Shown here piece by piece: positions 14,613 through 18,443 of a stretch of DNA of 64,000 nucleotides (its first letter is position 1; every line of letters begins with the position of its first letter). The position numbers and the translations under genes were made by a program. The stretch covers positions 1 through 64,000 of the forward strand of contig JAPKZB010000079.1 of NCBI GenBank assembly GCA_026393985.1, in the 5' to 3' direction. This DNA comes from Acidobacteriota bacterium. Lineage in GTDB: Bacteria; Acidobacteriota; Terriglobia; Bryobacterales; Bryobacteraceae. Under the pieces are notes generated by a model. The model was not told the DNA's origin. It saw only the letters and a program-made list of their open reading frames with translations, and ran no database searches.

Positions 14613-15533
14613 CTATTCCGAACGTTTCTGCATTGCAATCGGGTCCAGTCGGTTCTCAAGGATCCGTTCCGGCGAGAAATGCTCGATTCGCAGATCCACC
14701 CCGCTCGCCGCGGCCGCCGCCAGCGCGGCCTGCGGAATCAGTCCGATCAACTCGCTGGTCGCCACCTCCACGCCCAGTTCTGCCGCCACCCGCCCAATGG
14801 CCTCCCACACCACATGCGGAGGAGTTACCGTAAAATCCGTCAGGTTCATCGAAACCTGCGCCTGCCCGCGCTCCGGCAAGTACAGCCCCAGTGCTCTCAC
14901 ACACGCCAGACCGCCGCTCGCGTGGCGAATCCGGCGCGCGATCTCCTTGGCCGCGGCCACGTTCCCATCGGCCAGAAAAACATTCCAGGCGATCAAAATC
15001 TTGCGGGCGCCCACCGCCACCGCCCCCGCCGTCGGATGGGGCGCCGCGTGGCCAAAATCCGGCACAGGAAACGGCAGGCTCCCCGCCGCCTTCCGCACAT
15101 GGGCCAGATTGCGCCGGCTTTCGATCTGCGCCGCGGCATCGTACAGAAACACAGGCACCGAAAACCGGTTCCAGATCTCGGCCCCCACCGCATTGGCCAG
15201 CCACGCGCACTCCACCAGCGTGATGTTCCGCAGCGGCACAAACGGCACCACATCGGCGGCTCCGATCCGCGGATGCACCCCCGTATGCCTGGTCAGGTCG
15301 ATACGCGCCACCGTCTCACCCACCGCCACCACGGCCGCCTCCCCAATCGCTTCGGGCCGTCCGGCGAAGGTGATCACGCTGCGGTGATGATCCGCGTCCG
15401 CCGACCAGTCCAGAACGCTCACCCCGGGCACCGCCGCGACGGCCGACGCGATGGCCTCGATCGTCCGCACGTCCCGGCCTTCCGAAAAATTCGCAACACA
15501 CTCCACCAGCGGCAACGAGTTCGGCTCAGGCAA
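14613..15533 (-). CDS. ftcD: Glutamate formimidoyltransferase
   Basis: A 306-residue protein matching the formimidoyltransferase domain of FtcD, which moves the formimino group between N-formiminoglutamate and tetrahydrofolate at the end of histidine breakdown. Recognisable are VECVANFSEGRD at the N-terminus, the catalytic loop TGVHPRIGAADVVPFVP with His87, and VSMNLTDFTVTPPHVVWEAI near the middle of the C-terminal half. The cyclodeaminase domain of the mammalian enzyme is absent, as usual in bacteria. It overlaps the upstream hutI-like gene by eight bases, so the pair is one operon. Family call sure. Confidence 0.9.
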   Translation of the reverse strand: MPEPNSLPLVECVANFSEGRDVRTIEAIASAVAAVPGVSVLDWSADADHHRSVITFAGRPEAIGEAAVVAVGETVARIDLTRHTGVHPRIGAADVVPFVPLRNITLVECAWLANAVGAEIWNRFSVPVFLYDAAAQIESRRNLAHVRKAAGSLPFPVPDFGHAAPHPTAGAVAVGARKILIAWNVFLADGNVAAAKEIARRIRHASGGLACVRALGLYLPERGQAQVSMNLTDFTVTPPHVVWEAIGRVAAELGVEVATSELIGLIPQAALAAAAASGVDLRIEHFSPERILENRLDPIAMQKRSE

Positions 15534-16818
15534 CGCGCCACTCCGGCGCGGTTTCCTGATGGACGATCGTGCCCCGGCGTATTACCGTGGAAACCAGATT
15601 CATTCCAAAATGATAGGGGATTTCCCGATAGTCCGGCACGGACAAAATCAACAAATCGGCAAACTTGCCCGCTTCGAGCGAACCGGTCTCCCGCGCCACC
15701 CCCGCCGCGCAGGCTGCGTTGAAGGTAGCCGCCTGAATCGCCTCGGCCGGCGACATATGGAGTTGATTGCACGCAAGTGAGATGATCATCTGCATGTTGC
15801 AGGTAGGACTGTACAACGGGTCATACCCGGAAGCAACGGCCATCGCCGCGCCCCCGTCAATCAATCGCCGGGCCGGCGCCAGTCGGTTCAGCCGGAGATG
15901 ATACGCCAAGCCCGGCAACAGGACCGCCACCGTCGAGGAGTCGCACAAGTGGCCAATCTGGTCGTCTGTGATGAAGTTGCAGTGCGAAACGCTCTCGGCG
16001 CGCATCGCCACGGCCAATTCTACGTTCGAATCGGGCTGATGCAGCGCGGCATGGAGCCGCGGCATAAAGCCCGCCAGGCGCGCCGTGCGCAACAACTGCA
16101 CGGTCTGGTGCAAGGAAAAACTACACGCGGCAGGGTCGGCGTCAATATGCGCAATCGTTTTCCGGCGGGCAATGCGCGGCAGCATCTCGTCCATCAAAAA
16201 GCGCAGGTAACCCTCGGCGTTGCCTGCATACTCCGCGGGCAGAGCGCGCGCCCCAAACCAGGTCGGCAGCACCGAGATCGGGCACGCCTGCAAATCTTCG
16301 AGGACGCGCACACACTTCATCTCACCCGTATCGTCGAGTCCATAGCCTGTCTTGGCCTCAATCGTCGTCGTCCCGTGGCGCAGACAGCGCAGCAGCGTAT
16401 TCTTGGCCTGCAACTCCAATCGCCGCGCGGGCAGGTTCCGTACGTTCCGCACCTGCGCCTGCACCCCCTCCCGTAGCAGACCGCTCTGTTCGAGCGATGC
16501 CCCCAAGGTGTGCATCTCAAACTCGTCCACCCGGGACGGACCGCTCACCAGCATCGTGTGCGGATCAACGAACCCCGGCATCACCACGCAACCATCCGCA
16601 TCGATCACCTCGGCCCCACGGGCCTCAGCCAGATTCTCGATGCGCCGACCGGGGCCAACGGTCACAATCCGCTCGTCCTCGATCAGCACCGCCCCATCGG
16701 GCACCACCGCCAGATCACTCATCGAATTCACCCGGCGTGGCGCCGGGACCCCGCGAAGGGTCAACAACTGCCGCGCACCGCGAATCAAAATCTTTCTAGG
16801 CGGCATTCTTGTCTCCAC
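15526..16818 (-). CDS. hutI: Imidazolonepropionase-like amidohydrolase with lost metal ligands
   Basis: A 430-residue homologue of HutI, which hydrolyses imidazolonepropionate to N-formiminoglutamate. It aligns by eye over its full length with Bacillus subtilis HutI, as I recall that sequence (PGFVDPHTMLV, GTTTIEAKTGYGL, AVLLPGLAYHL, IPYHFGMN). Key residues differ. The HxH metal motif is HTM (His87 kept, Met89). The aspartate of the ATDFNPG motif is Gly331 (ASGYDPLYSP). The glutamate after the third histidine is Leu259, and the substrate-binding histidine of GAHA is Arg191. His256 and His279 remain. It may be inactive or have new chemistry. GTG start, with TACGGT six bases upstream and no Shine-Dalgarno. 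ftcD overlaps its 3' end. Confidence 0.8.
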   Translation of the reverse strand: METRMPPRKILIRGARQLLTLRGVPAPRRVNSMSDLAVVPDGAVLIEDERIVTVGPGRRIENLAEARGAEVIDADGCVVMPGFVDPHTMLVSGPSRVDEFEMHTLGASLEQSGLLREGVQAQVRNVRNLPARRLELQAKNTLLRCLRHGTTTIEAKTGYGLDDTGEMKCVRVLEDLQACPISVLPTWFGARALPAEYAGNAEGYLRFLMDEMLPRIARRKTIAHIDADPAACSFSLHQTVQLLRTARLAGFMPRLHAALHQPDSNVELAVAMRAESVSHCNFITDDQIGHLCDSSTVAVLLPGLAYHLRLNRLAPARRLIDGGAAMAVASGYDPLYSPTCNMQMIISLACNQLHMSPAEAIQAATFNAACAAGVARETGSLEAGKFADLLILSVPDYREIPYHFGMNLVSTVIRRGTIVHQETAPEWRVA

Positions 16819-17009: not shown

Positions 17010-17165
17010 CTCGGGTCGGCCGCTCTGAGTAGCCCTCGCATGGCCTCCGGCCATGCAGCCGCCCTGCACGCAACCCCCAAATTGTTCTCCCAATTCATAC
17101 CTGACTTGGGTCAGTTGCCGCGCCCGCCCCCCCGCGCACACCACGCCGGCAGCCAAGCGCGGCGC

Positions 17166-17171
17166 TATAAT
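17166..17171 (+). promoter_or_regulatory. -10 box TATAAT for leaderless amidohydrolase
   Basis: An exact TATAAT is followed by six bases (TCCCCC) and then ATG 17178. No purine-rich ribosome site precedes the ATG, so the mRNA is predicted to start at the AUG. Confidence 0.65.
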
Positions 17172-17177
17172 TCCCCC

Positions 17178-18443
17178 ATGCTCCGCTTCCTGGGCTCCGC
17201 CCTGCTCCTGGCCGCCGCCGCCCTCGCCCAAGACTTCGACCTGCTCCTGCAAGGCGGCCGCGTTATCGACCCCAAAAGCCGCCTCGACGCCCCCCGCGAC
17301 GTCGCCATCAAAGCCGGCAAAATCGCCGCCATCGAACCCTCCATCCCCGCCAACCGCGCCCGCCGCGTCCTCGACGTTCGCGGCCTCCTCATCACCCCCG
17401 GACTCATCGACCTCCACGTCCACGTCTACTACTCGGCCGGCAACCCCGGCTCCTGGGCCGGCGACAACAGCATCCCGCCCGATGTCCTCAGCTTCCGCAC
17501 CGGCGTCACCACCATGGTCGACGCCGGCTCCTCAGGCTGGCGCAACTTCGAACACTTCAAGGTCACCGTCCTCGACCGCGCCCGCACCCGCGTCCTCGCC
17601 TTCATCAACATCGCCGGCCACGGCATGATCAGCGACCTCACCGAACAGGACGACTTCAACCCCGACGCCATCGTCAAACTCAAAACCAAGTACCCCGATG
17701 CCATCGTCGGCGTCAAATCCGCTCACTACCGCCGCCCCGACTGGGAGTCGGTCGACTCCGCCGTCGAGGCCGGCAAAAAGGGCAACATGCCCGTCATCGT
17801 CGACTTCGGCTACTTCCTGCCCGAACGGCCCTACCACCAGCTCGTCGGCGAACACCTCCGCCCCGGCGACATCTCCACCCACGCCTACCGCGGCCCCGTG
17901 CCGTGGACCGACGACAAGGGCAAGGTCTATCCCTATCTCAAGGCCGCCCGCGCGCGCGGCGTCCGCTTCGACGTCGGCCACGGCGGCGGCAGCTTCGTCC
18001 TCCGCAGCGCCGCCGCCGCCATCAAAGACGGCTTCTATCCCGATACCATCTCCTCCGACCTTCACACCGGCAGCATGAACGGCGCCTTCATGGATATGCC
18101 CTCGCTCATGTCCAAACTCATGGCTCTCGGCATGCCCCTCCACGAAGTCATCCGCGCCTCCACCTGGACCCCCGCCGAAGTCATCCGGCGCCCCGAACTC
18201 GGCCACCTCACCGTCGGCGCCGAAGCCGATATCGCCGGCCTCCGGCTCATGGACGGCGACTTTGGCTACTACGACAACAACGGCGGCCTCGTCCGTTCGA
18301 AGCAGCGCCTGTTCTGCGAAGTCACCATCAAAGGCGGCGCCATCGCCTGGGACTACAACGGCCGCCAGGGCCGCGACTTCCAACTCCTCGGGCCGCACTA
18401 CGGCATCCGCGAAGGCATCGACCAGATCATCGTTCCCAAGTAA
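17178..18443 (+). CDS. Amidohydrolase/deacetylase family metallohydrolase
   Basis: A 421-residue exported amidohydrolase. A signal peptide (MLRFLGSALLLAAAALAQ) precedes the small beta-domain (LLLQGGRVIDPKSRLDAP) and the barrel. The metal site is intact: LIDLHVHVYY gives the HxH pair, VGVKSAHYRR a candidate bridging lysine, DISTHAYRG and VGHGGGSF histidines, and ISSDLHTGS the aspartate. The family resembles dihydroorotases and includes enzymes acting on N-acyl amino acids; the true substrate is unknown. The ThuA-like gene begins five bases after the stop. The start is fixed by the signal peptide and the TATAAT box. Confidence 0.85.
   Translation: MLRFLGSALLLAAAALAQDFDLLLQGGRVIDPKSRLDAPRDVAIKAGKIAAIEPSIPANRARRVLDVRGLLITPGLIDLHVHVYYSAGNPGSWAGDNSIPPDVLSFRTGVTTMVDAGSSGWRNFEHFKVTVLDRARTRVLAFINIAGHGMISDLTEQDDFNPDAIVKLKTKYPDAIVGVKSAHYRRPDWESVDSAVEAGKKGNMPVIVDFGYFLPERPYHQLVGEHLRPGDISTHAYRGPVPWTDDKGKVYPYLKAARARGVRFDVGHGGGSFVLRSAAAAIKDGFYPDTISSDLHTGSMNGAFMDMPSLMSKLMALGMPLHEVIRASTWTPAEVIRRPELGHLTVGAEADIAGLRLMDGDFGYYDNNGGLVRSKQRLFCEVTIKGGAIAWDYNGRQGRDFQLLGPHYGIREGIDQIIVPK

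Follow-up and report, generated by a model that had tools for sequence, protein, structure and literature searches.

A HutI homologue with an incomplete metal site is kept under selection, often beside ftcD, in an order of Acidobacteriota

In a 64,000-nucleotide stretch of an Acidobacteriota genome (the window), the gene directly upstream of ftcD encodes a homologue of imidazolonepropionase (HutI) whose metal site is incomplete. The active site is lost, the histidine pathway is absent from the genome, and the gene is linked to ftcD and under strong purifying selection. Across its group, the normal pattern of constraint is inverted, and 5-formyl-tetrahydrofolate (5-formyl-THF) cycloligase is missing from all sampled genomes of this large, soil-dwelling acidobacterial order. 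HutI homologues with an incomplete metal site are here called HutI*. That HutI* is a dead enzyme under selection is well supported. What it does is less certain: the leading account, at just under an even chance, is that HutI* is a non-catalytic pseudoenzyme from a hutU-hutI-ftcD operon, kept after pathway loss, whose beta-sandwich most likely binds FtcD. The locus is organized as follows.

15526 to 16818, minus strand: HutI* coding sequence, an imidazolonepropionase homologue whose metal site is incomplete; 430 aa if read from the first GTG
16564 to 16794, minus strand: N-terminal half of the composite beta-sandwich (residues 9-85), from conservation and the structure model, with the conserved motif RGARQLLTLRG..PRR...GP.RR.EN
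15817 to 16563, minus strand: (beta/alpha)8 barrel that once held the catalytic site (residues 86-334), evolving fast across HutI*
15559 to 15753, minus strand: C-terminal half of the composite beta-sandwich with a DYRE...G.N motif (residues 356-420), from conservation
14613 to 15533, minus strand: ftcD, a stand-alone glutamate formiminotransferase without a cyclodeaminase domain, TTG start

Translation of HutI* likelier begins at the ATG at 16806 (residue 5) than at the first GTG. The first-pass annotation's full-length alignment with imidazolonepropionase is borne out: the protein matches the hutI equivalog model TIGR01224 over its full length (318 bits; cut-off 298) and Bacillus subtilis HutI (2bb0) along its entire length (6e-72). 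An AlphaFold2 model (pLDDT 83) likewise finds 2bb0 as its best PDB match (Z 50.8), indicating that the HutI fold is present. The neighbour transcribed divergently from HutI* (17040-18443; NF006689, 392 bits) also encodes an amidohydrolase-superfamily protein, whose HxH motif is intact. A promoter scan found nothing.

In B. subtilis HutI (structures 2bb0/2g3f), we take His80, His82, His249 and Asp324 to be the mononuclear metal site, and Arg89, Tyr102, Tyr152, His185, Gln/Glu252 and His272 to be the substrate and catalytic residues. Alignment in this numbering places the following replacements in the window protein.

16552 to 16554, minus strand: Met89 at metal ligand His82
16492 to 16494, minus strand: Leu109 at Tyr102
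16246 to 16248, minus strand: Arg191 at substrate His185
16042 to 16044, minus strand: Leu259 at Glu252 (Gln in active HutI of the order)
15826 to 15828, minus strand: Gly331 at metal/catalytic Asp324

Two of the four metal ligands are gone (His82, now Met89, and Asp324, now Gly331), and the alignment revealed no substitute ligands at other positions. Tyr102, His185 and Gln/Glu252 are missing from the substrate and catalytic set. By alignment, His80 (H87), His249 (H256), His272 (H279), Arg89 (R96) and Tyr152 (Y159) are retained. The four replacements first read from the sequence (Met89, Gly331, Leu259 and Arg191) agree with the alignment to B. subtilis HutI; the change of Tyr102 to Leu109 had been overlooked, bringing the count to five. 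Although Leu259 is real, the weight given to loss of a glutamate there does not hold. Position 252 is Gln, never Glu, in 32 of 32 aligned active HutIs of the order, so the absence of Glu252 is uninformative by itself; Leu at this position is nonetheless unusual. The substitutions recur in close relatives: D324G, Y102L, H185R and E252L occur in all six at 81-91% identity, and the His82 position is changed in five (Met in four, Leu in one; His in L048).

The genome, which is 98% complete, lacks the remainder of the histidine pathway. No hutU, PF00221 lyase (hutH), cyclodeaminase domain (FTCD_C) or HutG (N-formylglutamate amidohydrolase) was found, and the HutI-like gene is the only one, with no second HutI. 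Likewise, none of 10 sampled genomes of the window's genus carries hutU. Histidine breakdown by a changed enzyme, one of two alternatives raised at first, is not supported, because hutH, hutU and a second HutI are all missing; the other, a new role, is favoured.

Among 120 sampled genomes of the order (Bryobacterales), most of them MAGs, 58 encode HutI*; these counts vary with search thresholds and contig breaks. In 41 genomes ftcD follows it immediately, and 31 of those lack hutU; in the other 17 HutI* lies away from ftcD. An active HutI accompanies it in 16 of the 58. The retained operon with ftcD, first noticed in the window, is thus found in the window's genus and in 41 of the 120 order genomes. 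By alignment, the residues at His80, His82, His249, His272 and Asp324 vary by lineage, with Asp324 mostly Gly or Asn, and several members bear large barrel deletions. In other genera, the genes preceding ftcD were considered as strongly reduced forms of HutI* but turned out to be SDR, riboflavin synthase, PhoPQ-related and other genes.

Spread of HutI* beyond the order was rejected. When the window's genome is set aside, 28 of the 29 best matches in the phylum have all five site residues, and these are kept in 18 of 19 HutI regions examined later, in genomes partly the same as the first set. The exception (L194/L232) is a single genome of another family (G392) with Asp324 to Asn, Arg89 to His and His185 to Arg; ftcD does not occur within 3 kb of this gene, which may have lost its site independently. 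Whether the substitutions define a clade depends on the method: FastTree splits HutI* from active HutI (support 0.98), a mixture-model tree does not recover HutI* as one group, and an AU test does not reject a single HutI* clade (p-AU 0.26). These trees neither reject nor establish a single origin.

Several loci depart from the common arrangement. In one genus, a type IV pilus operon whose last gene is pilQ, encoding the secretin, immediately precedes HutI* (L172-L176, L180); elsewhere in that genus, HutI* comes after yceG/mltG. A subgroup (L068, L072-L074, L076, L078, L079, L081) keeps His80, His82, His249 and His272 with Asp324 changed to Asn, and is perhaps an intermediate step in site loss. 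Next to its members, in divergent orientation, is a gene for a pseudouridine synthase of the S4/RluB type (annotated in L072); the same neighbour occurs in L181, outside the subgroup. Two very divergent HutI-like proteins, L085 (G018) and L086 (G020), have site residues HHHHD and HHKHD, have lost substrate residues, and possibly have a different amidohydrolase activity. In L087 (G031), where ftcD is intact, the adjoining HutI* is split into two overlapping reading frames; this could be a genuine pseudogene or an assembly artefact.

Sequence constraint indicates that the HutI* protein is maintained. In the window's genus, dN/dS of HutI* is 0.033-0.103 (one saturated pair aside) by pairwise NG86, with dS near saturation in some pairs. 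These values are lower than those of FtcD in nearly all of the same genome pairs, and below or inside the range of active HutI (0.07-0.15). Together with the lineage-specific site residues, the low dN/dS supports the first-pass annotation's view of several independent losses rather than general decay. Within this genus, the barrel (0.050) is as constrained as the sandwich (0.069), so the barrel still matters there, which counts against the leading account.

Across the whole group, the pattern of constraint differs from that of the active enzyme. The barrel/sandwich tree-length ratio is 3.0 in HutI* (2.6-3.4 in 16-row subsets) versus 1.0 in active HutI (0.95-1.15); L085 and L086, initially counted with HutI*, are excluded from this test, L085 having all ligands and grouping among active HutIs. 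Within the HutI* alignment, 13% of barrel cells are gaps, against none in the sandwich. Binned conservation over residues 101-280 is 0.15-0.50 in HutI* versus 0.54-0.75 in active HutI, and over residues 41-80 HutI* (0.68-0.70) exceeds active HutI (0.57-0.59). No pocket residue is conserved throughout the group, and HutI* presumably lacks all catalysis.

The working part of HutI* may instead be the composite beta-sandwich, acting as a macromolecule-binding surface. Its kept residues include R13, R16, R22, R28, R29, R58, R59, E61, N62, R67, D396-Y-R and N407. Of these, HutI* shares R13, R16, R22, R29, R59, E61, N62, R67 and N407 with active HutIs encoded as hutU-hutI-ftcD but not with active HutIs encoded without ftcD, where most of the kept residues vary. 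Residues 23-27 and 31-35, which flank R28/R29, are low-confidence in the AlphaFold2 model and might form a flexible surface loop. All 55 FtcDs from HutI* genomes retain Asp233, versus 18 of 40 from genomes lacking HutI*. On the tree, the latter amounts to about three losses of Asp233, and one further loss affects an FtcD adjacent to an active HutI, making this pattern a weak hint only. Gene linkage, the shared motif and the weak Asp233 correlation make FtcD the best candidate for a binding partner.

A different pseudoenzyme function is unlikely but is the strongest competitor: HutI* might serve as a ligand sensor or bind another protein or RNA, with its place beside ftcD merely ancestral. HutI* persists at the 17 loci away from ftcD, including those directly after pilQ in one genus and divergent from the S4/RluB-type gene in others, and the sandwich motif is conserved at these unlinked loci too. 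The arginine motif may reflect common descent rather than FtcD contact. HutI* is unlinked in the 17 genomes, and many genomes have ftcD and no HutI*, so there is no strict requirement in cis of either gene for the other. Against an unrelated function, ftcD is the sole conserved neighbour across the order, and every HutI* genome encodes FtcD except G092, a fragmented assembly; yet so do nearly all other genomes.

The FtcD-binding reading gains plausibility from folate metabolism. The window FtcD scores 294 bits against TIGR02024, and FtcD is encoded in 118 of the 120 order genomes. Its catalytic His87, which aligns with His82 of porcine FTCD, was reported intact at first and does not vary among the 112 FtcD sequences examined. 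None of the 120 order genomes (G000-G119) encodes the cycloligase (PF01812), which is present in 11 of 14 control genomes. The near-universal FtcD and absent PF01812 match the known replacement of cycloligase by FtcD, for which Jeanguenin et al. 2010 is reportedly the source, and the order's FtcD most likely does the cycloligase's job of 5-formyl-THF disposal. Formiminotransferase-bearing bacteria generally lack the cycloligase, and bacterial COG3643 FtcD proteins, an Acidobacterium one among them, can stand in for ygfA in an E. coli deletion strain (PMC3223725). In two loci (L075 and L091, from G038 and G072), a cyclodeaminase domain can still be weakly recognized (PF04961, 32-41 bits) in the FtcD beside HutI*; it seems to be a decaying leftover from the two-domain FtcD found in Hut operons.

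In the favoured sequence of events, HutI* would descend from the HutI of a hutU-hutI-ftcD operon. Once hutH and hutU had gone, ftcD would have been retained because FtcD removes 5-formyl-THF where the cycloligase is missing. HutI chemistry would have been lost, with the protein surviving in a non-catalytic role through its composite beta-sandwich, whose putative arginine-rich surface would be inherited from the FtcD-linked type of HutI. Most likely, HutI* would bind FtcD and stabilize or regulate it. A stronger version is doubtful: across the order, HutI* might be a dedicated non-catalytic subunit of FtcD, its functional surface moved from barrel to sandwich, that tunes 5-formyl-THF disposal rather than histidine breakdown.

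HutI* might also be an enzyme of altered chemistry, metal-free or using other ligands, perhaps acting on N-formylglutamate made by FtcD from 5-formyl-THF; this seems distinctly improbable. The modelled fold is intact, His87, His256, His279, Arg96 and Tyr159 are retained, the barrel is strongly constrained in the window's genus, and the window genome lacks a HutG-type amidohydrolase. Nevertheless, no pocket residue is common to all HutI*, and the apparent complementarity with HutG does not survive scrutiny. PF05013 (HutG) is rarer in HutI*-only genomes (8 of 42) than in genomes without any HutI (18 of 41; p 0.019), but this signal comes from one other family and vanishes within the window's own (4/26 versus 5/39, p = 1). 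HutI* as a replacement for HutG was accordingly rejected.

A leader cistron, translated solely to couple translation of ftcD and encoding a functionless protein, is highly implausible: the genes overlap, as first noted, by 8 nt if ftcD starts at the TTG at 15533, but the amino-acid sequence is strongly constrained (dN/dS far below 1), and HutI* persists at loci unlinked to ftcD. Least probable of all is a working imidazolonepropionase with displaced metal ligands: despite a score above the curated hutI cut-off, its genome lacks hutH, hutU and FTCD_C, no replacement ligands appear in the alignment, and Asp324, His185 and Tyr102 are all gone.

Cycloligase replacement by FtcD is already known biology, here in an order-wide case. 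If the favoured reading is right, the locus illustrates a possible fate of pathway enzymes when the pathway goes but one of them is retained for another task: the catalytic site of its neighbour dissolves, and another face of that neighbour becomes more conserved than its active site. HutI* thereby offers dozens of natural versions of one loss for studying how pseudoenzymes form, and raises the possibility of a HutI-FtcD complex in normal Hut operons. A caution for annotation is that the curated hutI model labels proteins with an incomplete catalytic site as imidazolonepropionase.

HutI (TIGR01224; B. subtilis 2bb0/2g3f, A. tumefaciens 2gok) is the closest characterized relative. The HutI* model superposes on 2bb0 over 407 residues (rmsd 2.3 A, 36% identity), the composite beta-sandwich is common to both, and many active HutI operons have the same hutI-ftcD gene order. 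Unlike HutI, HutI* lacks His82, Asp324, Tyr102, His185 and Gln/Glu252, sits in a genome without hutU or hutH, and shows relaxed constraint on the barrel across its group. The FtcD/COG3643 system that replaces cycloligase (PMC3223725) resembles the present locus in the intact catalytic His of FtcD and in the absence of PF01812 from the order; unlike at this locus, the available portion of that account describes no HutI-derived companion protein. Within partial literature coverage, no earlier description of a catalytically incomplete HutI beside FtcD was found. Amidohydrolase-superfamily pseudoenzymes share with HutI* the loss of catalytic ligands and the retention of the fold; a limited literature search found no HutI case among them, and HutI* adds order-wide, varied losses and inverted constraint.
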